From Mesostigma viride (Eukaryota; Streptophyta; Mesostigmatophyceae; Mesostigmatales; Mesostigmataceae), in assembly GCA_009746045.1 (NCBI GenBank), contig RPFO01000027.1, positions 1,636,696 to 1,700,695 on the forward strand: a stretch of 64,000 bases of DNA, in the 5' to 3' direction. Numbering within the stretch: position 1 is the stretch's first letter; each line of letters begins with the position of its first letter. Shown here one piece after another: positions 16,952 to 63,520 of the stretch. The translations under genes were made by a program, and so were the position numbers. The notes below the pieces were generated by a model that saw nothing but the letters and a program-made list of their open reading frames with translations, did no database searches and was not told the origin of the DNA.

Positions 16952-19900
16952 ATGTCCGGAGCGGGAAACGCGGATGTCGCGGCAGGGCAAGTGGAAGGCG
17001 AGCGCGTGCTGCAAGATTTTGCGGAGTAAGTGCACAGAAGAACGATTCGTCTAGAAATGAAAGAGGCGGTTGCTAGTTCTGAAGTCTCTCAAATAGTGTA
17101 AATTCAGGCTCGGGAGAGCCTTTTCGTTTCTGGCAAACGCGTCGTGAAAATGTAGACCTGCAGGGCCGTCTGTGTGATGTTGCTTAGCGCTCGTACGCAG
17201 AGCGTTTCTGTGATGTTTTGGGCTGCCACGCAGGTTCCCCCTGACTGCAAGATTTCGCTTTCTTACAAGGGTTTCGATTATTGTTTTGTCGGAATTTGGG
17301 AACTTCTTTGAATGGCAGGCTGCCGCTCGACAGGCAGCAGGAGCTGGGGCCGAGGGAGCTGGCCGTTATAAAGTGGACCGCAGCCACCGGGGAACTGTGG
17401 TAAGCATGCTCCACGCGTTTCCCGCAGAGCTACGGATGCAGCCGCAGAAAACTGGTTACCCCGTTTTATGGTGGAATACTGACATTGCGAAGAGTATAAC
17501 ATCAACACGGAGTGCCCACCAGGGAGTGCCAATCAGCACCACCTAAGCTCACCTGAGTCCACGTTGGAATAGTGCTAGCCACTTCAATTGACCTCTAGCC
17601 TAAGAATATTTAGTTTTGGATCATGGGCGGATCATTATCAACGTCTTTCGACGCGGGATAGCTGGAGTTTCGCTGCCATGTTTCATCCAAGCTTTTTGCT
17701 GTGCCGCCTTGTCATCAGCTCTTGTCTGTTGTTTGGTTGTCTTTCTGGTAGACGTGCTTTAGCCACACGCCCGTGCCTTCGTAAAGCCTTGCTGGGGCTC
17801 GGAATCTTTTTGCTGTACAATGCTGCCTACAACCTTGTCGCAGAATTGGTACATTTTACGATTTGAAGTGGCGGCCTAAAGTGTTGCTAAATTTGGATTT
17901 TAGGATATCTGTAGATTGGCCCGCGAGCAGCATGGTGCTCAAAGAACGTGGTGGCATGCTAGCGACACAGGGACACTTCGGCTTCAACTAAGGGAAGGGT
18001 AGGATTGTGAAAATGTTGCAGCATGCTTCTCAAAGAATGTGGTGGCAGGCGAACCGGGACGTTGCCTGGCAACATTTGCTCAGCAAACAGTTTTTGGAAA
18101 GGATAAGGACTCTGTTTTTCTGTCTTCTTCTTTAAGATACCTGCTGTCTTTTGGCTGTTTTGCCGGACGGCGGTTTGCAGTGGACGCAGCACAGTAGCAT
18201 GCTAGGAGACTTGTAGCACTGGAGTGTGGTCTGGTGCTGTACTTGCGACATGTTTGGAGTGCTGGTTGTGTTTTGGTACTTGGGAGCGGGCAGGGCAGGG
18301 CATGTGTGCGGACTGTCCTTTGTGCAGGAGGCCTTTGTGCGCACTGTCCTTTGTGCAAGAGGCCTTTCTTGTAAGGGGGAAGAGTATAAAAAATTACCGT
18401 TTGAAATTTCTTTGAAGTGCGCAAGAAGGTCATAAATCTAGTCTGGAACAATTTGTTTGGGGGTTTGCTTCAAAATTCTATGCGCTGTTTGTGTTGCGTT
18501 TCGATTTTGGGGGGATTCATGAGTGCACCATGCACTTGTCAAAGTGTCAATCGACGAATGGCCATTTGCTCAGTTTGCCTGCTGTTATGTACTGCTCTTC
18601 GACCCTCCGTTGCTCACAGCTCTCCTTTGGAAATGACATTTTTTTGGCCAAAATAGTGTGTTTAAAATTTTGCATTATGAAATTCCTTCTATTTGGAAAA
18701 CCTCCCTTTTTGCAGGAGGAACTGGCCTACATTTCGGCGGCTGTTAGCAATTCAGATGGACAAGGTAAATGCACCCATGACTAGGATTGACGAGCGCAAG
18801 TTCCCAGTCTGAATGGGTTGAACGGATTATTAGACGATTTTTCCAGTGGCACTGTCGCTTGCTTATCTGCCATGTAAGTTTTCCGGCTTATGCTCCATCC
18901 ACTGACTTACCTCTCCATTATTGGACCTCACATTCCCTATGCCTGTTTCCTAGTTCGGTTCCTCAAAGATATTGGATGTGCTGTCGGGCTTATATGGTAT
19001 AACACTTGTATATGGGAAATGGGTGAGTGGCTGTGTTTCGTTTGGTGTCAGCAGGTACATACTCCTTCCCTCCCTCCCTCCGTCCCTCCCCCTCTTTCCT
19101 TTATTCATTCATTTCATTAATCGTTTTGTTCGCTCATTCACTCACTCACTCACTCGCTCGCTCACTCACTCACTCACTCACTCACTCACTCACTCACTCA
19201 CTCACTCACTCACTCACTCACTCACTCACTCACTCACTCACTCACTCACTCACTCACTCACTCACTCACTCACTCACTCACTCACTCACTCACTCACTCA
19301 CTCACTCACTCACTCACTCACTCACTCACTCACTCACTCACTCACTCACTCACTCACTCACCCACCCACCCACCCACTCACTCCCTCGCTCACTCGCTCA
19401 TTTATTCACCCACCCACCCACCCACCCACCCACCCACCCACCCACCCACCACCCACCACCCACCCACCCACCCACCCACCCACCCACCCACCCACCCACC
19501 CACCCACCCACCCACCCACCCACCCACCCACCCACCCACCCACCCACCCACCCACGCCAAGCCACCCCGTCCTCTCCCTCCCTCCCTCCCTTCCTCCCTC
19601 CCTCCCTCCCTCCTCCCTCCCTCCCTCCTCCCTCCCTCCTCCCTCCCTCCCTCCCTCCCTCCCTCCCTCCCTCCCTCCCTCCCTCCCTCCCTCCCTCCCT
19701 CCCTCCCTCCCTCCCTCCCTCCCTCCCTCCTCCCTCCCTCCCTCCCTCCCTCCCTCCCTCCCTCCTCCCTCCCTCCCTCCCTCCCTCCCTCCCTCCCTCC
19801 CTCCCTCCCTCCCTCCCTCCCTCCCTCCCTCCCTCCCTCCCTCCCTCCCTCCCTCCCTCCCTCCCTCCCTCCCTCCCTCCCTCCCTCCCTCCTCCTCCCT

Positions 19901-22900
19901 CCCTCCCTCCCTCCCTCCCTCCCTCCCTCCCTCCCTCCCTCCCTCCCTCCTCCCTCCCTCCCTCCCTCCCTCCCTCCCTCCCTCCCTCCCTCCTCCCTCC
20001 CTCCCTCCTCCTCCCTCCCTCCCTCCCTCCCTCCCTCCCTCCCTCCCTCCCTCCCTCCTCCTCCCTCCTCCCTCCCTCCTCCTCCCTCCCTCCCTCCTCC
20101 TCCCTCCCTCCCTCCCTCCTCCCTCCCTCCCTCCCTCCCTCCTCCCTCCCTCCCTCCCTCCCTCCCTCCCTCCCTCCCTCCCTCCCTCCCTCCCTCCCTC
20201 CCTCCCTCCCTCCCTCCCTCCCTCCCTCCCTCCCTCCCTCCCTCCCTCCCTCCCTCCCTCCCTCCTCCCTCCCTCCCTCCCTCCCTCCCTCCCTCCTCCC
20301 TCCCTCCCTCCCTCCCTCCCTCCCTCCCTCCCTCCCTCCCTCCCTCCCTCCCTCCTCCCTCCCTCCCTCCCTCCCTCCCTCCCTCCCTCCTCCCTCCCTC
20401 CCTCCCTCCCTCCCTCCCTCCCTCCCTCCCTCCCTCCCTCCCTCCCTCCCTCCCTCCCTCCCTCCCTCCCTCCCTCCCTCCCTCCCTCCCTCCCTCCCTC
20501 CCTCCTCCCTCCTCCCTCCCTCCCTCCCTCCCTCCCTCCCTCCCTCCCCCCTCCCTCCCTCCCTCCCTCCCTCCCTCCCTCCCTCCCTCCCTCCCTCCCT
20601 CCCTCCCTCCCTCCCTCCCTCCCTCCCTCCCTCCCTCCCTCCTCCTTCCTTCCTTCCTTCCTTCCTTCCTTCCTTCCTTCCTTCCTTCCTTCCTTCCTTC
20701 CTTCCTTCCTTCCTTCCTTTCTTCACCAATTTCATCGTGTTGTATTTGCCTGTTTTCTCACTTGATCTCTGGGACCCTGCCAGGTGCTGCGGGAATTCTA
20801 TCAACGCGAGCACGTGGACATCGGCCCCCCTCGGCCGCTGTCCACCGGGGAAACCTTCGCCGAGCTGTGTGCGCGGCTGCAGAAAGGTGCGCGCTCTACA
20901 TCGATGCACACTGCGCCGTCTTGCTATGCAATAGGCACGCGCTGAAATACGTCCAGATTTCTAACAGGCATGCACCCGACATTGGATGGAAGGTGACGCG
21001 ACGTTTGGAGCCCCGAGCATGCTTGGTGCACTTGACATTCGATCCGATAACAAGCAGCCTGGGACTCTCGGGAGGGCAATGGATGGGTGCGGTTCTCGGG
21101 TCCATGGACGGAGGGAATCGAAAAGCTATCGCTTGCGAGAGCTAGCGACTCGTTTGCCTGAAGGAATGGCAACTTGAGGAGGGAAGCAACTTGACGAGCT
21201 AGAGCCAGCGCAGTACTTAAAATGCATTTGCCGTAAAAAGTTAGTTGTCTTTGGGGGCGTGTGCATCAGGTTCCCGACTGAAGGAAAGGGAGGGGTATTC
21301 CTAGTAAGCAGTTTCAATGGGGTAACCATTACGATGTTGTGAGGGAAGTTGAGCAGCTTATGTGTGCTAATGCCAGCACACGCACTCCGACCCCTCCATG
21401 CCATTCATAGTCCATCATCTTCTCACCCCCTACTTTGTTTACAGGCTTTGCTTGCAGTCTTTGCTTGTACTTGATCATCTTCTCATCCCCCTGCCTTGCT
21501 TATAGGCTTTGCTTATAGTTCATGATCTTCCTCCCCCCCCCACTTTGCTTGACAAACTATAAGCAAGACATAGTTTATCATTACAAATATAGGTTATGCT
21601 GTTTCTCTTCCTCCCACTTTGCTTGGCAAATATCGCGTGTGTTTTGTAGGTGCCTTCATGCTGCTCATCTTCTGCATTTGCTCTGAATTTTTCCTTTCCC
21701 TCTTTCTGGCTCTGCTTCCTCCGGTCACCGATTGCTTCCCTTATCAAAGCCCTCGCTACTGCTTCAATCTTCAAAGCCCTCCCTATTTTGGTGCTCTGTC
21801 TGTTTCTGTCTTTCCTTGGCCCCCATTGGTGGATACTCCTCTTCCCCTGCCCCCGCTGGTGGATGCGCTTGAGTTAGTATGGATGCATGCACTTAAGAGC
21901 AAGCGAGGCCCCCCGCCCTCCGCCCCCTGACTGCTCTTTCTTGTGTATGCGCTCCCCCTGGACGTGCTCTGCTTTCGCCCCCCCCCATTTCCATCCCCTT
22001 TCACCCCCCCCATCTCCATCCCCTTTCACCCCCCCCATTTCCATCCCCTTTCACCCCCCCCATCTCCATCCCCTTTCACCCCCCCCATTTCCATCCCCTT
22101 TCACCCCCCCCCATCTCCATCCCCTTTCACCCCCCCATTTCCATCCCCTTTCACCCCCCCATTTCCATCCCCTTTCACCCCCCCATTTCCATCCCCTTTC
22201 ACCCCCCCATTTCCATCTCCTTTCACCCCCCCCATCTCCATCCCCTTTCACCCCCCCATTTCCATCCCCTTTCACCCCCCCATTTCCATCCCCTTTCACC
22301 CCCCCCATTTCTATCCCCTTTCACCCCCCCCATTTCCATCCCCTTTCACCCCCCTATCTCCATCCCCTTTCACCCCCCCATTTCCATCCCCTTTCACCCC
22401 CCCCATTTTTATCCCCTTTCGCCCCCCCCTTACCATCCCCTTTCACCCCCCCATTTCCATCCCCTTTCACCCCCCCATTTCCATCCCCTTTCACCCCCCC
22501 ATTTCCATCCCCTTTCACCCCCCCATTTCCATCCCCTTTCACCCCCCCATTTCCATCCCCTTTCACCCCCCCATCTCCATCCCCTTTCACCCCCCCCCAT
22601 CTCCATCCCCTTTCCCCCCGTCTCCTTCATCCTGGCTGCGCGCAGGCTTGGAGTCGTTCGCGGAACAACCCCCGTTCACAATACAGCGGCTCTGCGAGGT
22701 ACATGTCACCAGTATGGTATTGTATGCCAGTATAGGATGGGAGGCCACATTCTAAATAACACACATTCTAAACAACATCAAAATATCTAAGGCTGCGGTG
22801 CTTTGTAATACAGCGGCTATGCAAGGTATGTGTCACCAGCATGGTATATCCTACTACAGTATATCATACTACAGTATATTCTACTACAATATACCATACT

Positions 22901-25900
22901 ACAGTATACCATACTACAGTATACCATACTACAGTATATCATACTGCAGTATATCAGACTGCAGTATACCATGCTACATTATATCATACTACAGTATATC
23001 ATCCTGCAGTATATCATACTACAGTATGACATACTACATTATATTATACTGCAGTATACCATACTACAGTATATCATCCTGCAGTATACCATACTACAGT
23101 ATGACATACTACAGTATATTATACTGCAGTATACCATACCACAGTACATCATACTGTGGTCAAGGCGCAAGGTGCGGTCTCTGGTATTGGGGCGGCCCTC
23201 GGGGTACGTTCAACGGTAGGGTATGTCATGCTGTAGTATGGTATACTGTAGTACGATATACTGTAGTAGGATATACTGTAGTTAAACTGCGAGGTGTGTT
23301 ATCTGGGATGGGGCGGCTTGGCGAGGTAAAGAGTATCATGTTCTTATTGTGTTAAGATTAGAAGAAAGGATGGGAATTTTTTTGACCGGGCATTTTGGGG
23401 GGGGGATATTTTTTTCAACCCGCAATTTTTTTTTGCTTTTTTGTTTTACCCACACTTATATTATTTTGTGCATATGTTCCCAATGCCACCCACATACATC
23501 TTTCTCACTTACATCTTTCTTCATGATTGTTTTGACGTCCACTTGTTCTGGCATCTAGTTCTTTTGTTTGACATCTTCTTCCCTTGTTCTGGCATCCGCT
23601 TCACTTGCTTTGAGATCTTCTTCCCTATTTCGGAACGTCGCCCCGCTCCTGACCCCGCCCATGATGTCATGGCTCGATATAGATCAATCATTATGCGCAC
23701 AACGTGCACAATTGTCAGGCGCTATGCCACGGCACACTGGCGATAATGCTATGCAACGTCACCCTGGTGATAGTGCTATGCAACGTCACACTGATGGTCA
23801 TGCAATGCCACAGCTCTCTGGCGGTCATGCAATGATTTTTTGGCTAGTTCCCCGGTTTGCAGAAGGGGTCTAATGCGATGCCAACGTCCCAATGATCACG
23901 AGGTTTAGCTTCTAATGCATCGAATTTCACCCCCGCGATCATGCTTCTTCCATTTGCTGATGATGCCCCTCACGCTGGCTGACTATGCCTCTGGTACTCG
24001 CTGATGATGCTACTCGCGCTTGCTTATGATGCTTCTTGCATCTACAATCTCACCCTGATGGTAATGGTTTACGTTGGACGCCACCCACCCGTCGCCGCAG
24101 GTGCTTGTCACATGCCACTCGTGCTACCGGGTGTTTGAGAAGCTGGTCCTCGCGATCGAAAAGGTGGGGCCATACAATGCATACAGGAGTGGGGAGGCAT
24201 GGGGGGGAGAGCCATACCATACCAGGGGGGTGCCTCACAAAACCGTAGTGTGTACAGGAGTGCAGGGTGGCGGTGATGATGGTGATGGGGCGCCTTGGTT
24301 AGTGAGAGGCGGGGGGTGGGGTGGGGGGGTGATTGTACATGCCATTATTGTTTGAGAAGCTTATTCTCTCGATGAAAAAGGTGAGCCCATGACATGGGAT
24401 GGAGGAGCACATGCCCGCCCGCCCGCCCGCCTGTGACATGTGAATGGCTGAGACAGGGAGGAAAAGGAGCATCCTTGGTGTTCTGGAAGTTGGGGGGGTT
24501 GAGTTCATTTGTCGTGGTGTTTGGGAGGCTTGTTCTCACAATTTATTTGGTGAGCCCATGACATGTGGTTGAGAAATTAAGAGTTGAGAAAGGGACGAAA
24601 GGGACCTTTCTTGCTTATGGGAAGTTTGTTCTTACAGCCTGTTCTTACCATGGATCTGTACTTGAAAAATAGCTTATGACACGTGATAGAGGAGGTATTA
24701 AGGGGTTGGGATGTACGCGTGTGACTTCCTCTTTCATTTGGGGGGGGGGCAGTGCTTTTAGTAACGGTTCGCGTGCGTCAGCCGCTGACGCGTCAGTGTC
24801 TGACGCGTCAGACTTATTCGTCCGCGCGTCAGACAGCTGACGCGTAAATTTTGGCTCTGCGTCAGTCGACTGACGCGTAAATTTTGTCTGCACGTCAGTC
24901 GTCTGACGCGTAAATTCAGGCAGCACGTCAGTACTTATGGGCACCGAGTCTATGCGTCTGGCAGGGTCAATATATAGTGGGTACCTACTAATGTACTGAA
25001 GTCCACTGAAATGCTAACTTCGTACTGGATATCTACGAATTCAAGTTCACCAGTTCAGGTCTGTTCGTTGATATGCTTCAAGATTCTAGGCCGTTATCAT
25101 GCCCATGCCAGACCCGCCGGCCCTAGCCTGCTTGGTGGCGAGAGTGACGAGAGTTCTAGACGAATGTAAAGTTGTAACCCAGGACGACTGGCAATGGTCG
25201 ATGTCTCGATGATGGCAAAGGTTTTAGGAATATGATTGATGAGCTGATTGATGAAGCGTTGCTAGGTTGCCTGATTTACATATTGCTTTGAATCGAATTC
25301 CAGGTGTGTTTATTAACGCTGTAGATTTGTTTGCATAAGAAAGAAGTCTGTCCATTACTAGATGCGCAGGGAAATTTCGGGCCGGGTCAGTAATATTGTA
25401 TAAACATTTAACAACGTTAATGGTTTAGTCCGATAGTCAACTAGCAAAGTTAGCGACCTGGGGGTTGGAAGTTTTTGGGTGAAGGGATGGCGCCGGAAGG
25501 AATACTGGGAAAAATTAAATCTGGGGGGATTGCAGCTTTTTTCATGCCGAAACAGGCCGCCGACATGGCCAAAGCGCCTGCGCCTGGTCCGCGTGCCATT
25601 GTTGGCGTAGGCCAGGCAGCCGACGCGCTGAACCGCAGCTAGAGGAAAAGGGGGAATGATAGCAATGCAGCCAGCAGTGCAGCAGCAGCATCGGCTGAGT
25701 CCGGCAATGCTGGTGAGCCCCCAGGCTGACGCGCCGCCAACGGCGGCAAGTCAGCCAGGCTGACGCGGACAAAAACCCTTACAAAAAGCACTGGGGGGGG
25801 TGACTTTCTTTGGGGGGGGTGGGGATTCATATCTATAGTGTTTCAAGGTTCCACAACAGCTGCTGCTCGTCTTACATGCGTAAATGCTGCCAACCACCGA

Positions 25901-27022
25901 TCAGTTTACTCCTCCCCCCTTTTTCCGTTCTGTCGCGTCATCTCTTTATTGCCTTTCCCCTGTCCCTTCCCTAGATATGTCTCTCTTTTGGCTGTACTAG
26001 AGTATACCACTCCTACCCGCTACATGTCCCTGTGTCCCTCGTCCCTTGACCTTCCCCACCCGCTAATCCTCGTCTCCAGCACCATGTCCAGTCCCCGACA
26101 GCCGCTGCTTGCCCTACTCCATCTGTGGTTGCTGTGCACCGCTCATCTGCTTTTTGTCTCCTTCCCCTTCAATAACCTCAATCTTTCACACCAGCTGCTT
26201 GTCCCCGGCAGCTTCCGTGGTCCCAACGGCTGCTGCTCTCTGTCACTTATTCTGCTGCTCATTCTGCTGCTCTCTGTCACTTTGAGCTGCTGCTCTCTTT
26301 CTCGTGTGTTCATCGTTTTTATTTGTACATCACTCACCTGGTTTGCCTCCCTTTCCCCCATCCCTGCCATATCCCCACCAGCTTCTCGTGCACTGCTCAC
26401 CCGCTTTTTTTTTTCCCCCCACCATCCAACCCCCAACTTTCATCTTCCCCACCAGCTGCTGCTCGTGTCTAGCACCGTGTCCGGCCCGCTCTGCACGACC
26501 GCGTCGCTTGACGACCTCCCCGTCAAGGCCGCCCCGCCGCCCCGCAAGCCCCTGGAGCACCCTGGCCTCGCCTCCGACGCTGGCATATCCATCCGCATCG
26601 TAGGCCCCTCGGACATCCTCTCCACGCTGGCGTCCGTGCGCGCCTCCGCCAACGACAACAGCGGGGCGATCTCTGAGGTTGTCGGCCAGGCGGCCACACC
26701 GCCGGACTCCATAGAGAAGTCGTCCGCGAACTGGGCGCGGGGCCTTCCGATGGAGGAAGGGGGCGGGCGGAGCGGGCATGGCCACGGGCATGAGCATGGA
26801 GATCCTATGGGGATGCATGAGAGGGGCAGCGGGGGGGATCAGCTCCCGCAGCCGATGATGATTGACAGCCGACTGGTCATGGATGGGAAGGGGGTATTGG
26901 GGGGGGGGGCGCGGTTTGATGGGGGCCCCAGCCCCGGGGGGTCGTCGTCGGGGGGTGGGATGTTGGATGATGTGGTCGCGATGGGGGTGGGGGGTGGGGT
27001 GGGCGGGTGGGGACGGCCATGA
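16952..27022 (+). CDS. PPP4R2: PPP4R2-like protein phosphatase 4 regulatory subunit 2 (7 exons, 329 aa)
   Basis: Exons 16952-17025, 17319-17399, 18716-18764, 20784-20886, 22646-22698, 24101-24163 and 26456-27022, all GT-AG with matching phases (total 990 nt with stop). The joined product reads [67 protein letters not shown] and [12 protein letters not shown], the diagnostic order of PPP4R2: a helix, TG...[17 protein letters not shown], then KL..AIEK...V. The C-terminal exon is low-complexity with a His/Gly and Gly-rich tail, as in the family's disordered acidic/variable tail. PPP4R2 targets the PP4 catalytic subunit to centrosomes, splicing factors and DNA-damage substrates. Exons are 49-103 nt except the first and last; introns hold very large repeats. 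The Met at 16952 is the only start joined in frame. Exon boundaries are inferred by eye. Confidence 0.82.
19137..20720. repeat. 1.6-kb tetranucleotide array in PPP4R2 intron 3
   Basis: Consecutive blocks: (ACTC)n 19137-19360; (CCCA)n ~19361-19553; (CCCT)n ~19573-20641, with frequent CCT slips; (CCTT)n ~20643-20720. Each block differs from the next by one base per unit. The minus strand is GGGA-rich and could fold into G-quadruplexes. Long open frames (LTHS, PPTH, LPPS) are artefacts. The array ends only ~60 bp before the exon-4 acceptor. Confidence 0.97.
20887..21975. other. First half of PPP4R2 intron 4; no separate gene
   Basis: Mixed sequence with CTTTGCTT...CTATAAGCA and TTGCTTGGCAAA-type imperfect repeats (21430-21640). 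The ORFs seen here are short and have no recognisable domain. Confidence 0.5.
21978..22612. repeat. 24-26-bp minisatellite (CCCCATTTCCATCCCCTTTCA type) in PPP4R2 intron 4
   Basis: About 26 units of a pyrimidine-rich 24-26-bp repeat, varying in C-run length, ending ~30 bp before the exon-5 acceptor at 22645. It effectively forms a giant polypyrimidine tract before the 3' splice site. Confidence 0.95.
22799..22850 (+). repeat. Decayed copy of the PPP4R2 exon-5 donor junction
   Basis: AATACAGCGGCTATGCAAGG followed by TATGTGTCACCAGCATGGTAT repeats exon 5's end plus intron start (AATACAGCGGCTCTGCGAGG, then TACATGTCACCAGTATGGTAT at 22679-22720) with a few substitutions, including the GT donor. A further weak trace (CTGCGAGGTGTGTT) occurs near 23286. 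Confidence 0.75.
22846..23290. repeat. 15-bp tandem repeat (TACTACAGTATACCA)
   Basis: About 20 units from 22846 to 23145 in PPP4R2 intron 5, then inverted-sense units (GTATACTGTAGTA) at 23230-23285. The word ACAGTAT/ATACTGT makes the array internally self-complementary. It starts directly where the decayed exon-5 junction copy ends. Confidence 0.9.
24345..24560 (+). repeat. Two decayed copies of the PPP4R2 exon-6 donor junction
   Basis: Exon 6 ends GTGTTTGAGAAGCTGGTCCT...GAAAAG then GTGGGGCCATAC (24131-24175). Copies: 24349-24395 (TTGTTTGAGAAGCTTATTCT...GAAAAAG, GTGAGCCCATGACATG) and 24516-24565 (GTGTTTGGGAGGCTTGTTCT..., GTGAGCCCATGACATGTGG). Spacing is ~218 then ~167 bp. Both keep a GTGAGC donor, better than the real GTGGGG. 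Confidence 0.75.
24770..24940. repeat. Cluster of palindromic TGACGCGTCA-type repeats
   Basis: CTGACGCGTCAGT-like palindromes recur about 8 times, several followed by AAATTTTG. Interspersed half-sites (GCGTCAGTCGACTGACGCG, GTCAGTCGTCTGACGCG) make nested inverted repeats able to form hairpins. In PPP4R2 intron 6; role unknown. Confidence 0.8.
25845..26455 (+). repeat. Degenerate copies of the PPP4R2 exon-7 acceptor junction
   Basis: The real acceptor is CCCCACCAG then CTGCTGCTCGTGTCTAGCAC (26447-26475). Look-alikes in the preceding intron: CCACAACAGCTGCTGCTCGTC (~25851), CTCGTCTCCAGCACCATGTC (~26068), CACACCAGCTGCTTGTCCCC (~26190), and CCCCACCAGCTTCTCGTGCA (~26384). All are pyrimidine-preceded AGs followed by exon-like sequence, so the exon/intron edge was duplicated repeatedly and has decayed. 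Confidence 0.6.
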
Positions 27023-27106
27023 GCGGTGCGGTTGAAATTGGCTCTGCGCCCCTGAAACTGCGACTCTGTGATGGTACTCCTGTGATGGTGCTACTAGGGT
27101 GGTACT

Positions 27107-27112
27107 AATAAA
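27107..27112 (+). promoter_or_regulatory. Possible poly(A) signal AATAAA after PPP4R2
   Basis: AATAAA lies 85 bp after the stop codon at 27022. Many algae use other signals, so this is only a candidate. Bases 27120-27680 show no gene. Confidence 0.3.
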
Positions 27113-28275: not shown

Positions 28276-28304
28276 TCCGCGGACCGGCACTGAACGCAAA
28301 TGGT

Positions 28305-29798: not shown

Positions 29799-29819
29799 GT
29801 GCAAACAGTCCTACCGGTC

Positions 29820-31100: not shown

Positions 31101-31107
31101 ACTAGGC

Positions 31108-31717: not shown

Positions 31718-31721
31718 TTAA

Positions 31722-33065: not shown

Positions 33066-33069
33066 TTAA

Positions 33070-34768: not shown

Positions 34769-34772
34769 TTAA

Positions 34773-53800: not shown

Positions 53801-56266
53801 CGCGCTAAAGTCTTGCCTGGTGGCTTCTTGGTTGGTGCCATTCGCACTAAAGGCTTGCCCGATGCTTTTGTCGGTGCCTTTCCGGTTCCCGCAGGCGCAC
53901 TACACGCAGAGCCTTCACCAGCTGATTTACCGGCTGGGAGTGGACTACCTGGTGGGGCAGGTACACAAAAAGAAGCCCGCCTGGTACACACTTAGGAGTG
54001 TTTAATGACTGCGAGGGGGTTCGTCTAAGCCATCAAAGCTTCACAACGGGATGCCATGGCGGGGCGTGGGGCAGGTTAGAAAACGTTGTTGTTGTTTTTT
54101 CTCTGCCCCTAGTAGCGGGGCAGGTAACGAGGCCTCCCTGTAACAACCAAGCTTATGGGGCTCACTGCTTTATTGCCAAGCTAACTTGCCGGGCTTTACC
54201 CAGTTCATTATGATTAAAATGCATGGATTGTTCGGTGGGACCAGGTAAATACGAGTCTCCGTGTGCTAGCCCAGTGAAGGAGAGGACTCCACCCAAGTTG
54301 CTTTGGGCATGGAATTCCCGCTTCAAGTAGTCCCGTGCTAGTCTTCCTGTTTAAGGCAGCAGTCGCTGTTTGAGGCAGGGGTGGGAGCTGGAGTCGCGTG
54401 CAATGCCACATGGGGCAGGGTCATTTTTACCCGATGCGCCTCTCTGGAATGCGCCACACACGAAGAATGTAGCGATGCCAAACCAGCACACCAGGCGGCC
54501 CCATCGCGGAAATCCCATCACCGCCAGGGTGTCAACATTGGTATTCAGTATTGATGTATTCTGCCAACTTTCCTCTTTAAAGCATTCTTTCTTCGATTTG
54601 CACAAAGTATACCCACCGAGTTCTTGCCCTGGCTGCCTAGTCTTTGTTCCTTGTACCTGATGCAAACAGCCACGTTTTCCCATGTTTTTCTGGACTCTTG
54701 GTCTGGCCTTGACCTTTGGCCTTTACACGGGCAAGACTTGCCCCACCAGCTCAGATCAAATACCCTGACGCTCCCGTCCCATGTGGGTACTTTGTCGTCA
54801 GAACCCATGTGGGAACTTTGTCGTCAGAACCCATGTGGGAACTTTGTCGTCAGAACCCATGTGGGTACTTTGCCTGGATGGATGAGCTTGTGACATGGAT
54901 GAGCTTGTGACATGGATGAGCTTGTGACATGGATGAGCTGGTGACATGGATGAGCTGGTGACATGGATGAGCTGGTGACATGGATGACAGTCAAGAGGTT
55001 TTCATTTCATGTGCTCGCAGCATTTGTTCCGTCCTTTCCATGAATAGGCGGGTTGTCGAACCAATGAATGGCCGCCCAGTGGATTGATGACCTTGCGACC
55101 GTCCGAGTTTTTCATTTCATGTGCTCGCAGCGTTGTTTGCTCCATTCGCATGATGCAGAAAAAATACCCGCGGGAGTGCCTGCAGTTTGAGTACGACCCC
55201 ACGTTCCCCATTCGAGGCCTTCACTACGACTGCCTGAAGGTCAGCTACCGCACTATAGTGACCACACACACGTCCGAGGCCTGCACTGCGACTGCCTGAA
55301 GGTCAGCTACCGCACTATAGTGACCACACACACATCCGAGGCCTGCACTGCGACTGCCTGAAGGTCAGCTACCGCACTATAGTGACCATACACACATCCA
55401 AGGACTTCACTACGACTACCTGACGGTCAGCGACTACACTGTAGTGACCACACTCACGTCTGAACGCCTTCACTACAACCGCTGCTGCGTGCAGTTACTC
55501 GCAATCTGCACTTGGGATGGGAGATGCTTTTTCCTAGCTTTGTCCTCCCAGCTCTCGACAATAGATACCTGGGGGTTACCTCTAGGGGTTTCCTATAGGT
55601 CACACTCTAGTCATAGTCGTAGTCGTAGCCGTAGCCGTACTCGTACTCGTAGCCGTAGCCGTAGCCGTAGCCGTAGCCGTAGCCGTAGCCGTAGCCGTAG
55701 CCGTAGCCGTAGCCGTAGCCGTAGCCGTAGCCGTAGCCGTAGCCGTAGCCGTAGCCCAGTCGCAGTCGCAGTCGCAGTCGTGGTCGTAGCCGTAGCCGTA
55801 GCCGTAGCCGTAGCCGTAGCCGTAGCCGTAGCCGTAGTCGCAGTCGCAGTCGCAGTCGCAGTCGCAGTTGCAGTCGCAGTCGCAGTCGTGGTCGTAGTCG
55901 TGGTCGCAGTCGCAGTCGCAGTCGCAGTCGCAGTCGCAGTCGCAGTCGCAGTCGCAGTCGCAGTCGCAGTCGCAGTCGCAGTCGCAGTCGCAGTCGCAGT
56001 CGCAGTCGCAGTCGCAGTCGCAGTCGCAGTCGCAGTCGTAGTCGTGGTCGTGGTCGTAGTCGTGGTCGTAGTCTTCGTCACATTTTGTGAGTTATGATTC
56101 TGTCCTCATGTTTGCATGCACCCGTTGTGAGATGAAGTCTTGGGCACATGGGGCGGTTGCTCTGCGGAGTGAGGCGGCGTATCTGCCTGCCCCCCCTGTG
56201 TCCTTTGTCTCTTATACCTCTCTCTCTGTGTATGTCTCTCTCTGTCTCTCTTTCTGTCTCTCTGTT

Positions 56267-56358
<92 letters not shown>

Positions 56359-59300
56359 ATGGCCTCAATTTCCCTGTTGGGAAGGGACCACGAGTGAGCT
56401 GGGCTGGGCTGGGCTGGGCTGGGCTGGGCTGGGCTGGGCTGGGCTGGGCTGGGCTGGGCTGGGCTGGGCTGGGCTGGGCTGGGCTGGGCTGGGCTGGGCT
56501 GGGCTGAATGGGCTTGGCTTTTGCAGGGATTTCTGATGAAGCTCGATTTCTACTACACGATCGAGACAAACTCTGCGTTCTGCGGTCGGCGCAAGGTGAG
56601 GGAGCAGGCAGAAGCCCATTCCCCCCGTTCCGTTACAGTTTTCTGGGACAATGCTCATAGTAGTAGTAGTACTCATAATATACTACTAGTAATAATATAC
56701 TTGTTTATAGTACACTTGTCATACCTTGCGTTTTGTGGTTGGAGCAAAGTAAGCCCACCCATTGAGCGATAGCGGATTGATAGTAGTATGCGGAAAGTGA
56801 AGGAGGTGAAGGAGGGGGTGGAAGAGGTGAAGGATGTTTTTGGCATCATGCATTGCCTCAAACCTGTTTGCTCTATCATGCTATCCTTGATGTTCACTAG
56901 TTCTTATGTTATCTGTTTGTTCCATCATGTTGTCCATGCTGTTCACTAACTGCTATCACATTATCTGTTTTCTCAACCATTTTATCCTTGCTGTTCACGA
57001 ATTGTTACCGTGTCATCTGTTTTCTCTACCATTTTATCCATGCTGTTCACTAGAGGTGTTCCAGATCCCCAAGCCGGAGCTGGAGGAGGCGTACGGGGGC
57101 CTGATTGTTATCATGTCATTTGATTGTTCTATCATGTCATTAATGCTGTTCACTACTTGTGTTCCAGATCCCCAAGCCGGAGCTGGAGGAGGCGTACGGG
57201 GGCCTCGACATCCGGCCGCAGTACATGCAGGACAACATGGTCGCGCTGCTGGACCTCTTCTCCCTCGCGGAGGTAGGATGGGTGTTGCCTGTTACATTCA
57301 TTCAAGGGTAGTGAGAGCTGGTGTTGGGTAGTGGACAACAAGGTGGTGCTGCTGGACCTCTTCTCCCTTGCGGAGGTGGGATGGGTGTTGCCTGTTACAT
57401 TCATTCAAGGGTAGAGCGAGCTGGTGTTGGGTAGCGGACAACAAGGTGGTGCTGCTGGACCTCTTCTCCCTCGCGGAGGTGGGATGGGTGTTGCCTGTTC
57501 CATTCATTCAAGGGTAGTGAGAGCTGGTGTTGGGTAGCGGACAACATGGTGGTGCTGCTGGACCTCTTCTCCCTCGCGGAGGTGGGATGGGTGTTGCCTG
57601 TTCCATTCATTCAAGGGTAGTGAGAGCTGGTGTTGGGTAGCGGACAACATGGTGGTGCTGCTGGACCTCTTCTCCGTCGCGGAGGTGGGATGGGTGTTGC
57701 CTGTTCCATTCATTCAAGGGTAGTGAGAGCTGGTGTTGGGTAGCGGAGTGGAGGGGCAGGACATCATGTTGGAGGGGCAGGGACATGGTGGCGCTGCTGG
57801 ATACTATGAAGGAAGCAAGAGTTTCAAGGAGCTCAAGAAAGAGTTTCAACAAACTTATGCCGATGTATGTCACATATGGTGACGTGCCAGCGGGGCATCG
57901 TAAGCATCTATTTTGGGAAATACGCCTGCTGGAACAGCCAGCAATGAATTTCACTGTTCCTGGGGCTTTCACGGAACCGCAAGCCATCCACTTCAAGGTT
58001 CCGGTGGTCTACTGTAGGGGTTTCCTTGCCCAGCGGTCGTCCCCTGCCCTGGAACCCAGCTTATTTACAAGCCAACCATTCTCATGGTCCCATGTAGGGC
58101 TTGCAAAGCGGCAGTCCCCTGCCTTTGAACCCAAATTTATCAACTCCTAAGTCTTTACTCACCTTGAGGTTCCTGCCGCTGCTCTTTCACAATCGATCAA
58201 CCATGGAGGGCTAGATAAAGGGCATGATCGCAAATGTCAACCTATCGGTGACGGCGGCTCATTTGTGGCTTTGGATCGTTACCACCAACGGTTGCCCCTT
58301 GAACATGCAGGCGTGCCTGATCAGCGACGTCGTCGAGTATTTCAACCAGAAACGCATCAGCTTCCACCCAGGGTGCGTCCGGTGGTGTAGGCCCTGGTAA
58401 TATGGTTATAGTGAACGTTGCACAATATCTTTGCGGATCCTGCGAGCATTGCTTCCTGGCTTTCCTTGCCTTGTTCCTACCACTGGTCAAACAAGCACTT
58501 GGCAGCGTCTCGGGCAGCATAGCGGGCAGCATCTCGAGGAGCATCTCGGGCAGCATCTCGGGCAGCATAGCGGACAGCATCTCGGGCAGCATAGCGGGCA
58601 GGCTCTCATATTGAAGTGAGCCATGTTTGATGCTAGTCCCAAGGCTCAGAAAGGCAATAGCTCCTCAGGTGGTTGAGCCCTATTAGATTGTTCCGATGTA
58701 CATTGATGAATAAGGCAAATGCTATGTGATATGCTTCTGAATCCTGTTCTACGAGGTGTATCACACAGCATTTGCCTTATTCATCCTAATGCCTAATTCA
58801 TCTTAATGCCTTATTCATCCTAATGCCTTATTCATCCCGATGCCTTATTCATCCTAATGCCTTATTCATCCTAATGCCTTATTCATCCCAATGCCTTATT
58901 CATCCTAATGCCTTATTCATCCTAATGCCTTATTCATCCTAATGCCTTATTCATCCTAATGCCTTATTCACGCTGTAAAACTTCACACCTAATAGTAATT
59001 ATGGACCTGTAATTCACCAGTAATTCACTGGACCGTTCACTTCATATCCTGGCTAGAAGAATCATACATAATGCATGAGCGTTGTGACAAGAATTAGACC
59101 TTGCCATGCCGATGTCTGTAATGGCTGTACGGCCTGTCAGGAAATGCGAACGCTCACCTGCGTCCGCTTTGGCCCTAGCCATTCTCTTGTCTGGAAGAAC
59201 TGGCCGCTAATTTGTTCAAGGAGGTCCTCGCACCGTCTATTTTGTTACTTTAGTCGGTTGAACAACGGCGAGAAATCGCCTGGCCTCGCTGCCTCTTTTT

Positions 59301-62300
59301 AGTGGATTATGCCATAAACGAGGGTGTTCGACCCACGATAGATGCGGATGTTATATTGTCCACGCTGGATCATGTAATGAACGAGGATGTTTTATTAAAT
59401 AGGATCATGTAATGAACGAGGATGGTTTATTATATAGGATCATATAATGAACGAGGATGGTTTATTATATAAGGATGTTTTATTAGTAGTATATTTATAG
59501 TAGTATATATTATATAAAGGCCGGGATACCCAGGGCCTGCGACACATCGCAAATGTTTTATGACACAGAAAATGATGATTGCAACACCCACTTCCTTTGG
59601 CTCACTCATGGCCGACATGGCCCCTTGCTGGGCTCGCTCGTACCCCCTGGCTACCAGGCTCGTGTATGGGGATGTGCATGATTCTTTTTGCCCACTTTTT
59701 CTGCACCCTATTAACTTGTTCTGTTGTTATAGTATCATTAGTAATCTTATTATTAGTAACATTACAATTATACTACTAATTAATATTGTAGTGTCATATG
59801 CCAGTAGTAGTATGCCACCTTACGTAGTGACACTACCTCAAACATGTCTGTTAACCCCACAACCACAAACGGATAGCCCCATTTATGAAAGCGTGTGGGG
59901 CTCTTATGGCCCCATCTTCCATGCCTCATAAAAATGACATCTCTACCGTGTTGTTCATTGCCTTGCTGCTACTCACGTCTCGTATTTAAAATTTTCCACA
60001 GTCACAAACCAACAGCTCTGTTTCCAAAAGCTCGTTTCGCGTATTCGTCATATTGTTGTCGAAACTGTAACCAACCTCGAACGTGCCTGGTTACCCCAAC
60101 AACTACGACCCATGCCATACGACCCATGACCCTTATACCCTGCCTTAAATACGCCGTTTCTGGTCCTTGTTCAAGTCAACTATGAAGTATGAACAAACAG
60201 TTCCGTTTACGAAGACGTGCGGGACTCCATTCGGCAGGTCCTCATGTCTATCATGCTAATGGCCTTGCTGCCTCATGCGCCTGTAATGCCCACAACTACA
60301 AACGAACAGCTCTGTCTATGAGGATGTTCGGGACTCCATCCGGCAGGTCCACATCAGCGGCGCGCTGCACCGAGCCGTGCTTCGCAACCCAGAGATCTAC
60401 CTGAGCGATGCGGTGAGGCGTGCGTGGGATTCAAAAATAGACAACTACCACACGAACAGTGAGGCGCGCTATTTATAGATAAACGCATTCTAATAAAGCC
60501 GCTATTAAACTACGACGACGACGACGACTACAAATAGTAAAGCTGTGATCTGGTATGAGCGACGTGGTGAGGCATGGGCGCTATCTATGGCTGGAGACAA
60601 CGAGTGCCAGTAGTTCTCAGCTTCATTAGCTGTGGACATGGCTGCAACCACTGAGCCATTAAAAGCTTGCCTCTGCATGCTGAATTGCTCGGTGTCAGAC
60701 TTGGGCTCTGTTATGCTTGGAGCCCGATGCTTCAGGCATGGCTGCAGTCGTCGCGCAGTCGAACATTGCACCAGCGCAAGTATCTCCTGCACCTGCATAC
60801 CTCCTTGGTGCGTGACGCTATGCATTTGTGAACTTACCCTATGGTCCTTATGCCTGCAGCCGAAGCTGCAGGCCTGGCGGCAAGTTCAGAGCATCTGATA
60901 CATCTTTTGCAACTACGCCCCTCCTTGGTACACTATACAATATTCTTACAGTATTCTTATAATATTCTCACAAATCCACAACGTGGCCCTTACGCGATGC
61001 GTGCAGCCGAAACTGCGCGCATGGCTCCAGTCGCTTCGGGACGCGAACAAGAAAATGTTCATCATCACCAACTCCCCGTACTCCTTTGTCGACGGCGGCA
61101 TGCGCTACATCTTCAGGGTACGTTCCTAGGAGGCATGTGAATAGGTGGTAGGTTCATCATTGCAAACTGCCCTACTCCTTTGTCAATGGCGGCATGCATT
61201 ACATATCCCGGGTGCTTTGCTATGCTGTTGGCTGATCCTCAGGATGACGGCCAGAACGGCGCCTCATGGGGCAGCTTCTTTGACGTCGTCGTCACCTCCG
61301 CAAACAAGCCCAGTTTTTACACCGGCCACCGGCACTTCAGGCACGTGGTGCTGGGTGGTCGGGCTCGACTAGCCCTTGATTAACTAATTTTAATGATGTA
61401 GTTGATTAATTAATTAATTAATTAATTAATAACACGACTAGCGCTTGCACCAGTTGCGAGCGCCTACACTAGGAAGCCTTTGTTGCAGTCGTAGCAGCCT
61501 GTTCTACGGCCCCACAGTACGTAGCTGCCTCATAAGATGTGGCCTCTGCTATATGGGGTTGCCCAACGATGTTATGGGACATAGCTACTCTCTCTTTTGT
61601 GAGACTTTGCTTCTGTGGCAGAACGTTGCTGCCGTCTCCCCCAAGGCACGGCTGAGGGCACATAAGACCGTGCAACAGTCTGCGGCCACATAAGACGTTG
61701 CAACAGTCATATACGGCGCTGCTGTGGTATTTTGCAGACGTTGCCATGGTGCTAATGTGTTGTTGAAGGCATCGCTATTGTCTTTGGGATGCTGCTCTGG
61801 TCTTGGTCTTTGTTTACTCCCTTGGGCTCTTTTGCCTCAGGCTCTTAGGGTGAAAGCCATTGTGACTTCTTGTATTCAGGTGGGATTGAAGCCCCAAGAG
61901 CTCATATTGAACCGCTGATTACTATCAAATAAATAGGTTGAACTATTTCATCTGATCTGATTGATATTTACTGGCCCTTTGTAGAAGCTAGCTGGGTTGC
62001 AGTGATTCGCATGGAAAAATCGTGAATGAAAATCGTGGGACCCTACCATGTCTTTACTCTTCACTTCATCTTATCGTCTCAGTTAATGCGACTTCCGGCA
62101 TGGAAGTATGCTGTAATATAGGACCATAGGGGTGGCTATAGTATGTCACTACAGATAGTACTACTGACAGCCGAATCTTTGGAGTATAGTCTGTTAAAGG
62201 GACAAAGATGTGCTGACTAACATGGTTAGCCCTGACAGTATCGTATTTGATGTGCAGATCCAATTTCCCCTTAAATCCTGTTTGTGTCTTTTGCTCTGGT

Positions 62301-63247
62301 ACCGAGTTTTCCTCAAACGCTGAAGGTTTAGGGTTAAGGGTTTAGAAAGTTGGTGAGCGGAGCCCATTGCACCCCTTTATCTATGTGCCGTCGTCCTGTC
62401 TGTCCCTCTCATCCGTTTAGGGATGTATGCGTGACAATTCGAGCTGGTGAGCCAGATAGGGATAGCGTCCTTTTAGGGACGTGTGTATAACAATTCGAGC
62501 TGGTGTGCCAGATAGGGATAGCGTCCTTTTAGGGACGTGTGTATAACAATTTGAGCTGGTGTGCCAGATAGGGATAGCGTCCTTTTAGGGACGTGTGTAT
62601 AACAATTCGAGCTGGTGTGCCAGATAGGGATAGCGTCCTTTTAGGGACGTGTGTATAACAATTCGAGCTGGTGTGCCAGATAGGGATAGCGTCCTTTTAG
62701 GGACGTGTGTATAACAATTCGAGCTGGTGTGCCAGATAGGGATAGCGTCCTTTTAGGGACATGTGTATAACAATTCGAGCTGGTGTGCCAGATAGGGATA
62801 GCGTCCTTTTAGGGACGTGTGTACACCAATTCGAGCTGGTGTGCCAGATAGGGATAGCGTCCTTTACCGTGCGAGCGAACACATGAGCCTAGCCACATAG
62901 CATCCTAATGATAACGATCGCTGCTGTCGTGCTATCGTTTTCTCTGCGCCTCCCACTCTCATTCTGCCCCTTTCATACACTTTTTCTTCTAGTTCTCGTT
63001 GTGTGTTGTTGCTGTCAGCTTGGCGCGTAATCACCCCTTGGTGTGTCGTTGCACACCACATCATCCTGCTGCTGCGCCTGGTGCGACATTCTGTCATACC
63101 CTCCTCCTCCTCCTCCTCCTCCTCCTCCTCCTCCTCCTCCTCCTCCTCCTCCTCCTCCTCCTCCTCCTCCTCCTCCTCCTCCTCCTCCTCCTCCTCCTCC
63201 TCCTCCTCCTCCTCCTCCTCCTCCTCCTCCTCCTCCTCCTCCTCCTC

Positions 63248-63279
<32 letters not shown>

Positions 63280-63520
63280 ACTGCGCCTGGTGCATTATTC
63301 TGTCGTCCCATCCTGCCGCACTGTCTTAACATGTTTATGTGTCTAAGTGTGATCATTTTTGTGATCATTACAAATCTCTTGTACGCCACGTGGCAGGCGG
63401 TTGAAGTCTGACGCGGAGACCCTGGACTGGGAGACGGTGCGAGAGTTCCGCCAGGACTCTTTCTACGTCAACGGCTGCCTAAGCGAGTTCCTCCAATTGA
63501 CCAAGTGGAACGGGCGGCAG
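50856..63520 (+). CDS. NT5DC: NT5DC2/3-like 5'-nucleotidase domain protein, mitochondrial type (11 exons, 3' end beyond window)
   Basis: Exons 50856-51339, 53435-53505, 53895-53960, 55159-55239, 56527-56595, 57168-57272, 58311-58372, 60310-60412, 61007-61117, 61243-61340 and 63397-63520; phases agree (458 codons so far). The N-terminus [20 protein letters not shown] is Arg-rich and acid-free, as in a mitochondrial presequence. Family landmarks in order: [20 protein letters not shown] with the HAD nucleophile box [98 protein letters not shown] motif [39 protein letters not shown] (motif III Lys), [12 protein letters not shown]. Motif IV (GDH) must lie to the right. These HAD proteins are putative nucleotidases of unsettled substrate. 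Intron 10 is GC-AG. Confidence 0.87.
51955..52412. repeat. 17-bp tandem repeat (AAGGTTATCACCACAAT) in NT5DC intron 1
   Basis: About 22 units with CAC/CAT alternation. Two copies of a larger insert (AACAAGGGTTATCGTTTTGA then TATTATTGGCTAATCA) at ~52211 and ~52337 show that a ~126-bp block was itself duplicated. Confidence 0.92.
53530..53885 (+). repeat. 42-bp minisatellite in NT5DC intron 2, largely open in frame
   Basis: About 8 units (GCCATTCGCGCTAAAGGCTT, GCCTGGTGGCTTCTTTGTTG, GT), starting ~25 bp after the exon-2 donor and ending ~10 bp before the exon-3 acceptor, so it is almost the whole intron. Because 42 is divisible by 3 it encodes repeated [14 protein letters not shown], with few stops. 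Confidence 0.9.
53961..54775. other. NT5DC intron 3, left part
   Basis: Contains two short echoes of the exon-3 donor (GGTGGGGCAG then GTACAC at 53951): GTGGGGCAGGTTAGAAAA (~54068) and GCGGGGCAGGTAACGAGG (~54116). Otherwise no gene recognised. Confidence 0.45.
54778..54995. repeat. 27-bp and 17-bp minisatellites in NT5DC intron 3
   Basis: CCCATGTGGGAACTTTGTCG then TCAGAAC, four units (54778-54870); then GACATGGATGAGCTKGT, about seven units (54880-54990). Confidence 0.93.
54998..55158 (+). repeat. Duplicated acceptor-side flank of NT5DC exon 4
   Basis: TTTTCATTTCATGTGCTCGC followed by AGC.TTGTT occurs at 54999 and again at 55110, about 111 bp apart. The second copy continues to the true acceptor ATGATGCAG at 55158; the first ends in CCATGAATAG. 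Confidence 0.75.
55225..55480 (+). repeat. 62-bp tandem copies of the NT5DC exon-4 donor junction
   Basis: TGCCTGAAG then GTCAGCTACCGCACTATAGT occurs at 55231 (real exon end, donor GTCAGC), 55293 and 55355, with a decayed fourth (TACCTGACG, GTCAGCGACTACACTGTAGT) at 55417. Each unit includes the last ~20 nt of exon (CACTRCGACTGCCTGAAG) and the donor. Period is exactly 62 bp. Confidence 0.9.
55605..56075. repeat. (CGTAGC)n / (CGCAGT)n hexamer array in NT5DC intron 4
   Basis: Hexamers CGTAGC (55620-55755, 55790-55836), CGCAGT (55756-55780, 55837-56035) and CGTGGT variants. Blocks alternate, showing block duplications. Confidence 0.95.
56216..56506. repeat. (CT)n and (GGGCT)n arrays before NT5DC exon 5
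   Basis: (CT)n about 56216-56352 and (GGGCT)n 56399-56505 (~21 units). The latter ends ~20 bp from the exon-5 acceptor TTTTGCAG at 56526. Confidence 0.95.
56724..56760 (+). repeat. Decayed copy of the NT5DC exon-5 donor junction
   Basis: CTTGCGTTTTGTGGTTGGAG then CAAAGTAAGCCCA parallels the exon end CTCTGCGTTCTGCGGTCGGC then GCAAGGTGAGG (56570-56600), GT donor kept. Bases 56761-57050 otherwise show CATTTTATCC.TGCTGTTCAC repeats of ~60 bp. Confidence 0.7.
57056..57158 (+). repeat. Identical partial copy of NT5DC exon 6 acceptor junction, 103 bp upstream
   Basis: 57056-57102 (GTGTTCCAGATCCCCAAGCC ... TACGGGGGCCT) is identical over 47 bp to 57159-57205, which is the real acceptor and first 38 nt of exon 6. 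The copy then runs into intron sequence (GATTGTTATCATGTC). Confidence 0.92.
57273..57805 (+). repeat. 103-bp tandem copies of the NT5DC exon-6 donor junction
   Basis: GGACCTCTTCTCCCTCGCGG then AGGTRGGATGGG occurs at 57251 (exon) and 57354, 57457, 57560 and 57663, exact 103-bp steps, each carrying ~40 nt of exon end (AACAWGGTGGTGCTGCTGGA...) plus GT donor and intron start. A last fragment (GACATGGTGGCGCTGCTGGA) is at 57781. Confidence 0.95.
58500..58975. repeat. 15-bp (GGGCAGCATCTCGGA-type) and 17-bp (CCTAATGCCTTATTCAT) minisatellites
   Basis: 15-bp units 58500-58612; 17-bp units 58780-58972 (about 11). In NT5DC intron 7. Before the second array, AAGGCAAATGCT...AGCATTTGCCTT (58712-58778) forms an inverted repeat. 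Confidence 0.92.
58976..59860. other. NT5DC intron 7, middle; no gene
   Basis: Contains three ~35-bp repeats (GGATCATGTAATGAACGAGG then ATGKTTTATTA) at 59370-59465 and AT-rich ATTAGTAATATTA sequence at 59730-59800. ORFs are short and unrecognised. Confidence 0.5.
59870..60245 (+). repeat. Three upstream copies of the NT5DC exon-8 acceptor junction
   Basis: The real exon 8 starts at 60310 after ACGAACAG (CTCTGTCTATGAGGATGTTC). Copies: 60201-60240 after ACAAACAG (TTCCGTTTACGAAGACGTGC), 60016 after ACCAACAG (CTCTGTTTCCAAAAGCTCGT), and 59877 after CGGATAG (CCCCATTTATGAAAGCGTGT). The 60201 copy still encodes [13 protein letters not shown]. Confidence 0.82.
60722..60905 (+). repeat. Two upstream copies of the NT5DC exon-9 acceptor junction
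   Basis: The real edge is GCGTGCAG then CCGAAACTGCGCGCATGGCT (61007). Copies: GCCTGCAG then CCGAAGCTGCAGGCCTGGCG (60862), and CGATGCTTCAGGCATGGCTG then CAGTCGTCGCGCAG (~60725). Both are in intron 8; the second is more decayed. Confidence 0.75.
61146..61215 (+). repeat. Decayed copy of the NT5DC exon-9 donor junction
   Basis: GGTTCATCATTGCAAACTGC, CCTACTCCTTTGTCAATGGC, GGCATGCATTACATATCCCG, GGTGC parallels exon 9's end (TGTTCATCATCACCAACTCC..., GGCATGCGCTACATCTTCAG, GGTACG at 61048-61121). Most of intron 9 (61118-61242) is this copy. Confidence 0.82.
61341..62425. other. NT5DC intron 10 (GC-AG), left part; no gene
   Basis: Contains (TTAA)n at 61405-61430, CAT/CATAAGACSKTGCAACAGTC repeats (61660-61710), and mixed sequence. 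The ORFs have no recognised domain. Confidence 0.5.
62430..62865. repeat. 56-bp tandem repeat, about 8 units
   Basis: Unit: AATTCGAGCTGGTGTGCCAG, ATAGGGATAGCGTCCTTTTA, GGGACGTGTGTATAAC. Exact 56-bp steps (for example GATAGCGTCC at 62461 and 62517), units nearly identical. Confidence 0.96.
63102..63292. repeat. (CTC)n followed by (TGC)n trinucleotide array
   Basis: (CTC)n about 63102-63251 then (TGC)n 63252-63281 in NT5DC intron 10, ~105 bp before the exon-11 acceptor. Poly-Leu/Ser/Pro/Gly ORFs are artefacts. Confidence 0.97.

Follow-up and report, generated by a model that had tools for sequence, protein, structure and literature searches.

The window, i.e. the whole 64-kb stretch of DNA analysed here (contig 335 in a genome of 440 Mb and 2,243 contigs), has a GC content of 52 % by base counts and is rich in tandem repeats, with 98 TRF rows. 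Three genes with models hand-built by homology lie in it: PPP4R2 with seven exons, UCHL5 with seven and an NT5DC-like gene with ten recognised exons (Table 1). The families were checked by Pfam and, for UCHL5 and the NT5DC-like gene, also by PDB sequences, among which PPP4R2 had no match. The end of the last UCHL5 exon was taken from the end of the open frame. The NT5DC-like gene extends past the window end; its model starts at the first recognisable exon, and the exon numbers of an earlier note on this DNA are, by our presumed mapping, one higher. All introns of the three models are of the GT-AG type except NT5DC intron 9 (GC-AG), the sole non-GT donor. In UCHL5 exon 5 the frame is broken between the two conserved halves, close to a G-rich stretch, by what may be a sequencing error, a small intron that escaped recognition or a genuine defect. 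Very long microsatellite arrays are present in the window, and the CTCC and CCT arrays sit in introns of the studied genes. Two stretches hold retroelement remnants; a query of viral contigs with the reverse transcriptase found no relatives.

Table 1 Genes, junction copies and other features of the window (positions within the window; NT5DC exons in model numbering)
Feature	Coordinates	Strand	Evidence or remark
PPP4R2 gene, 7 exons	16952-17025, 17319-17399, 18716-18764, 20784-20886, 22646-22698, 24101-24163, 26456-27022 (gene 16952..27022)	+	Pfam PF09184, 41 bits
UCHL5 gene, 7 exons	49412-49379, 49229-49039, 48798-48692, 47170-47068, 46165-45511, 44498-44108, last exon 42680 to ~42468 (gene 42468..49412)	-	Pfam PF01088; PDB UCHL5 E 1e-77
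NT5DC-like gene, 10 recognised exons	53435-53505, 53895-53960, 55159-55239, 56527-56595, 57168-57272, 58311-58372, 60310-60412, 61007-61117, 61243-61340, 63397-63520 (53435..63520)	+	Pfam PF05761, 258 bits
PPP4R2 exon 5 donor copy	22807..22863, offset +127; second decayed copy 23192-23244	+	z 17.2
PPP4R2 exon 6 donor copy	24349..24407; second copy 24516-24563	+	z 13.0
PPP4R2 exon 7 acceptor copy, AG changed to CG	26046..26094; further copies 26142-26236, 25841-25870	+	z 11.5
UCHL5 exon 4 donor copy	46930..46966	-	z 13.1
UCHL5 exon 4 acceptor copy	47238..47324	-	z 11.4
UCHL5 exon 5 donor copy	45428..45465	-	z 14.1; absent from the earlier note's list
UCHL5 exon 5 with frame break	45511-46165	-	
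NT5DC exon 3 donor, three tandem copies, period 62	55275..55456	+	TRF, diagonal scan, junction alignment
NT5DC exon 4 donor, decayed copy	56720..56753	+	junction alignment
NT5DC exon 5, acceptor and donor both duplicated	56864-57747	+	common period 103 bp
Intron-only repeats upstream of exon 5 acceptor copy, TRF period 52	56865-57004	+	TRF
NT5DC exon 5 acceptor copy, period 103	57005..57102	+	TRF, junction alignment
NT5DC exon 5 donor, four tandem copies, period 103	57333..57743; exon-only remnant 57783-57801	+	TRF, junction alignment
NT5DC exon 7 acceptor, three decaying copies	60185-60245, 59952-60021, 59833-59903	+	junction alignment
NT5DC exon 7 donor, short copy	60556..60576	+	junction alignment
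NT5DC exon 8 acceptor copies	60713-60765, 60850-60878	+	junction alignment
NT5DC exon 8 donor copy	61170..61222	+	junction alignment
NT5DC intron 9	61340-63397	+	begins with GC (boundary AG/GCACGT)
Retroelement remnants	487-2919, 30614-31189	-	gag with zinc knuckle, Cauli_VI/RNase H1 N-terminal domain, reverse transcriptase
Microsatellite array, CTCC	19141-20717		
Microsatellite array, ACGCCC	5298-6511		
Microsatellite array, TGT	15745-16190		
Microsatellite array, CCT	63100-63252		

Junction windows of 60 nt (30 nt of exon and 30 nt of intron) were, after masking of microsatellites, aligned to the intron next to them and compared with 100 dinucleotide shuffles, an alignment which the earlier note had proposed. 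In the three genes 16 of 44 junction windows exceeded z = 4. Twelve of these matches crossed the junction by at least 6 nt on each side, the rule used in the window tests and in their interior controls, and two more (the exon 4 donors of UCHL5 and NT5DC) crossed by 5 nt; the matches of the UCHL5 exon 6 donor and exon 7 acceptor were confined to the intron part. A same-strand junction copy in the adjacent intron was present at 14/44 junctions, or at 12/44 under the stricter 6-nt rule: the donors of PPP4R2 exons 5 and 6 and the acceptor of exon 7, the donors of UCHL5 exons 4 and 5 and the acceptor of exon 4, and the donors of NT5DC exons 3, 4, 5, 7 and 8 and the acceptors of exons 5, 7 and 8. 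Donors were positive in 9/22 and acceptors in 5/22 cases. On the reverse strand none of the 44 junctions exceeded the null mean by 10, and window junctions matched introns of other genes in 3/116 comparisons. All 13 junctions implied by the exon list of the earlier note (PPP4R2 exons 5, 6 and 7, UCHL5 exon 4 on both sides, NT5DC exons 4, 5, 6, 8 and 9 in its own numbering) were among the positives, while its hint at NT5DC exon 3, the exon 2 acceptor of our model, gave a z of 3.5 and a match that does not cross the junction.

Individual window copies agreed with their junctions at 733/890 matched positions on the exon side and at 899/1121 on the intron side. Among the 29 copies with a readable site, GT was intact in 17/18 and AG in 10/11. 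Several junctions are crossed by arrays of set period: TRF reported 62 bp x 4.3, 103 bp x 2 and 103 bp x 5. Duplicate families were found by diagonal scan, with two low-complexity PPP4R2 arrays excluded from the counts; many tandem copies escaped a BLAST self-comparison, probably by culling of near-diagonal matches. The copies had been described as lying always on the intron side, which is borne out (two weak matches in 37 wrong-side tests) yet nearly tautological, the coding copy being the one that defines the exon. A decay with distance from the junction was not significant in the window (Spearman -0.24, p 0.17, n = 35 copies), and this part of the earlier description is not upheld.

Local duplication is common everywhere in the window, in introns and non-genic DNA alike. 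One-sided tests found a neighbouring copy for 50/281 and 50/273 windows in the intron interior and for 28/254 and 30/245 in non-genic DNA, with 1/34 and 4/43 in exons. In an array a donor necessarily takes the first place and an acceptor the last, and the fair control for junctions therefore consists of interior windows holding one of these two places. Junctions were positive in 14/44 and these interior windows in 34/526 cases, an odds ratio of 6.75 (p 2.5e-6) which is post hoc and comes from the pattern's own discovery data; the equally post hoc comparison with the 6-nt rule for both gave 12/44 and 34/526 (p 6e-5). Young copies (identity at least 0.85) were found at 6/44 junctions and in 11/526 interior windows. 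Long-period families were at window junctions in 13/27 cases with 5.55 expected (p 2e-4), short-period families in 1/23 with 3.3 expected. Random intron points fell into recognisable local duplications at a coverage of 0.245, corresponding to 10.78/44 or about a quarter. The statement that junctions are duplicated no more than intron points (14 with 10.8 expected, p 0.17) was dropped: its null is unfair because random points also land in derived copies, as the comparison of first and last copies and the simulations showed. These neutral simulations combined tandem duplication at a uniform rate with conserved exons, indels and deletions, and eight settings were run 100 times each. The mean number of covered junctions was 4.2-7.0/42 as compared with the observed 14/44; at least 14 were reached in 0/100 runs for seven settings and in 1/100 for the eighth, although the simulated intron coverage of 0.30-0.39 exceeded the observed one and should favour the null. 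Uniform neutral duplication thus falls short, and either the rate must be higher locally or the copies must have an advantage in being retained. That a conserved exon half explains everything was rejected, as the simulations already include it and an excess is also seen among young copies. Taken alone the young excess is weak against the simulations (P 0.01-0.23).

Genes outside the window were selected for their protein family, regardless of repeats. Chaperonin (PF00118) and adaptin (PF01602) exons were located across the genome; PF00227, with 11 matches, gave too few adjacent exon pairs and was unused. Adjacent exon matches were accepted only if contiguous in the profile, with a gap of up to 15 residues and an intron below 6 kb. 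Seventeen genes entered, one of which (on C1407) gave no usable exon pair, and 38 GT-AG introns were refined in 16 genes. Left out were an ambiguous match on C2145 (763583-764593), the matches on C2011, C1912, C1106, C1539 and C1690, and a duplicate gene on C1641. This duplicate is one of two copies of a chaperonin gene (C887, C1641), perhaps haplotypes, whose aligned parts are about 96 % identical and one of which has an intron longer by about 3.1 kb. On C2011 (1347332-1348840) lies a full-length uninterrupted chaperonin frame, which may be of organellar type or a contamination; other chaperonin matches in the genome are mostly small exons. The test used 80 shuffles and a crossing of 5 nt for junctions and controls alike, and was repeated at 6 nt; counts cover all 38 introns, eight of them outside the high-confidence rule, with the subset of 30 tallied beside.

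The donor excess recurred in these unseen genes. Twenty of 76 junctions were positive as compared with 33/770 interior first or last copies (odds ratio 8, p 2e-9), in 11 of the 16 genes, and the positives divided into 17/38 donors and 3/38 acceptors. Under the 6-nt rule 17/76 junctions remained (15 donors, 2 acceptors; 33/770 interior, p 3e-7), with donors alone above the interior (p 2e-12) and no excess of acceptors alone over interior windows (p 0.24). High-confidence introns gave 16/60 junctions (14 donors, 2 acceptors), 24/588 interior windows and no reverse-strand match. Copies in excess of interior ones, on which the earlier note had made its reading depend, are present in both gene sets of this sample. 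The NT5DC-like gene was also followed past the window, with exons found by eye in translations and one between exons 11 and 12 possibly missed. Four of five junctions were positive there (exon 11 donor, z 10.9; exon 12 donor, 14.7; exon 12 acceptor, 14.8; exon 13 acceptor, 5.3), including two of three acceptors, the exon 11 acceptor being negative (z 0.5); the exon 10 donor, one of the 44 window junctions, was still negative with the longer intron. Junction copying thus recurs across unrelated genes outside the window and is centred on the intron start. Chance similarity or low-complexity sequence would be favoured by the abundance of micro- and minisatellites in the window, but microsatellites were masked, the nulls were dinucleotide shuffles, and besides the negative reverse-strand result of the window the new genes gave 2/76 reverse-strand matches and 5/470 matches of mismatched junctions with other genes' introns (donors 4/236, acceptors 1/234), so that we regard this explanation as extremely unlikely.

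The overall sample comprises 60 donors and 60 acceptors of 19 genes in one genome, drawn from two protein families and the window. Copies were found at 26/60 donors and 8/60 acceptors (p 2e-4); in the window alone the difference between donors and acceptors was not significant (p 0.17). Copying at both junction types, as the earlier note had it, holds for the donors of both gene sets, but the acceptors of the new genes do not rise above the interior, and the acceptor effect differs between genes. The fraction of introns with a copy further inside rose from 0.00 at 60 nt on the exon side of the donor to 0.27 at 15 nt on that side and 0.40 at the donor junction; it was 0.31 at +15, then 0.20-0.21 from +30 to +75, 0.16-0.21 from +105 to +150 and 0.08-0.16 from +195 onwards. 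The acceptor profile was 0.14 on the junction itself and 0.25 at 30 nt inside the intron, with 0.09-0.22 at the other intron positions. Introns of the 38 new cases have a strong strand asymmetry at their ends: the first 60 nt contain 35.5 % G and 18.4 % C, the last 60 nt 19.2 % G and 42.1 % C.

A peak that sits on the donor could be read as a mutational hot spot, with duplication directed at the 5' splice site itself, e.g., by R-loops or G-rich structures at the G-skewed intron start. The failure of uniform duplication in the simulations and the G-rich intron starts agree with this, as does the higher GC skew at donors with copies (0.33, n = 26) than without (0.20, n = 33; p 0.025), a weak association and one of several comparisons. 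Young copies (identity at least 0.85) were likewise most frequent at the donor (9/58, 0.16) and 15 nt into the exon (9/59), but nearly as frequent from +30 to +75 (5-6 of 54-57), and their peak is not clearly sharper than a broad elevation. The seeding of duplications at splice sites, as proposed earlier, is not proven by these counts, and we consider a hot spot at the donor itself unlikely. Old copies were found at 14/58 donors (0.24); at +45 to +75 young and old copies were similar (0.09-0.11 and 0.09-0.12). The sharp donor excess consists mostly of old copies, kept recognisable by the conserved exon half. The profiles by age therefore probably reflect three factors: high local duplication overall, a higher rate near intron starts, and similarity fading more slowly in parts whose original is conserved. 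GC-rich exons were rejected as a cause, duplicated interior windows not being GC-richer (0.513 vs 0.530, p 0.3).

Decayed donor copies, defined by an identity below 0.9 (n = 24; 15 from new genes, 9 from the window), had kept their GT in 23/24 cases, whereas the centre dinucleotide was intact in 17/44 interior pseudo-copies (Fisher p 2e-6), a contrast that is partly expected because the reference GT cannot change. Other interior dinucleotides were intact in 57 %. The exon-side identity of 0.82 predicts a retention of 0.67, which was exceeded (p 9e-4), and the new genes alone gave 14/15 (p 0.02). The retention may point to a use of the copies or to uncontrolled differences in mutation rate. Binding of U1 snRNP protects long introns from premature cleavage and polyadenylation. 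Extra donors might accordingly be kept by selection for function, through such protection or by restraining splicing, and besides the GT retention an excess of donor copies but not of acceptor copies in the new genes would fit. The rest of the donor consensus was not kept, however, with the third intron base intact in 14/24 and the fourth in 16/24 copies, and introns with a donor copy were not significantly longer than those without (median 905 vs 698, p 0.49), though just 1/8 introns below 300 nt has one. Together with the immutable reference GT these results make selection for function rather improbable.

The earlier note knew of no genome-wide junction copying of this sort, but similar boundary duplications have been described. 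Amphioxus 'mirages', reported for Adh3 and globin genes, are minisatellite-like tandem duplications across 5' and 3' exon-intron boundaries with units of 10-160 bp, in which AG and GT are kept in many, not all, repeats (PMC3087553); they are also reported for PGBD5 and troponin C genes (PMC3902484). Like mirages, the repeat units found here span the boundary, e.g., those of the NT5DC exon 3 donor and of the exon 5 donor and acceptor, donors and acceptors are both duplicated, and the site is kept in many, not all, copies. Mirages were reported gene by gene, whereas the present sample was drawn from 19 genes with controls and has a donor bias and mostly decayed copies, in an organism which the 52 % GC of the window and the divergent proteins make unlikely to be amphioxus; splicing of mirages was tested by RT-PCR. 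In human paralogues within segmental duplications, variable tandem repeats were described, with some at exon-intron boundaries and the possible formation of novel introns (PMC2812944). Those repeats are likewise of minisatellite type and alter gene structure, but have units of about 30 bp, half of them coding, with differences among recent paralogues, and are linked to novel introns; here, offsets are typically 57-150 bp, and it is existing introns that hold the copies. The nearest known system is the amphioxus mirage. The kind is thus already known; such a density, a donor bias and a GT retention that is nearly complete were not met in the literature consulted, and no genome-wide count of boundary copies like this one was recognised in the open-licence literature, a weak negative.

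New introns are known to arise where exon sequence containing AGGT is duplicated in tandem (PMC2891723), and this mechanism shares with our pattern a local tandem duplication with splice signals. The copies might then be footprints of intron birth. Such an origin predicts the upstream exon end at the 3' end of the intron and the downstream exon start at its 5' end, and 1/42 tests on the 21 window introns agreed. The sole fitting case, in NT5DC intron 8, goes back to the donor copy already counted there, this intron being very short (125 bp). Intron as well as exon sequence is present in most copies, and existing introns appear to have acquired boundary copies, which leaves intron birth a very improbable source.

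Our preferred explanation, which we hold to be probable though far from certain, is a frequent local tandem duplication that is commoner near intron starts, with donor-straddling copies persisting as the exon-proximal donor is still used. Segments of about 20-200 bp would be duplicated in tandem frequently and genome-wide, and within introns more often towards the 5' end. Where such a segment straddles the 5' splice site, the exon-proximal donor would remain in use, and the copy of exon end and donor would lie silent in the intron, where it may expand into a short array and then decay. Copies of the 3' splice site would arise as well, but as decoys upstream of the true acceptor they would compete with it, and many would be lost. 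The conserved exon half would keep old copies recognisable and sharpen the peak at the junction. The copies, their strand, the tandem arrays at several junctions, the excess at donors of the unseen genes and the donor peak are direct observations; from them we infer an exclusive use of the exon-proximal donor, a purging of acceptor copies by selection against upstream decoys, and whatever molecular cause the duplications may have. Several results run counter to the preferred explanation: uniform duplication falls short in the simulations, acceptors are not always purged, as seen in the window, in the NT5DC-like gene beyond it and in the acceptor profile at 30 nt inside the intron, the GT retention exceeds what drift alone easily gives, and duplicated intron windows are not distinguished by GC content. 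An enlargement of introns by local duplication, the part of the earlier proposal that can stand apart from its seeding at splice sites, is plausible because about a quarter of the sampled intron positions lie in recognisable local duplications.

Gene annotation is at risk where such copies are frequent, as predictors may choose decoy donors or exon fragments. With a copy at 26 of the 60 sampled donors, the enlargement of introns, the choice among near-identical competing donors and the fate of decoy sites become countable in one genome. A farther-reaching reading, that duplication at the intron's own 5' splice site is the main way in which introns of this lineage grow, the spare donors being retained as working U1-binding or decoy donors, is in our view doubtful. 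If true, donor duplication would let intron length and a transcript-protecting array of splice sites evolve together.
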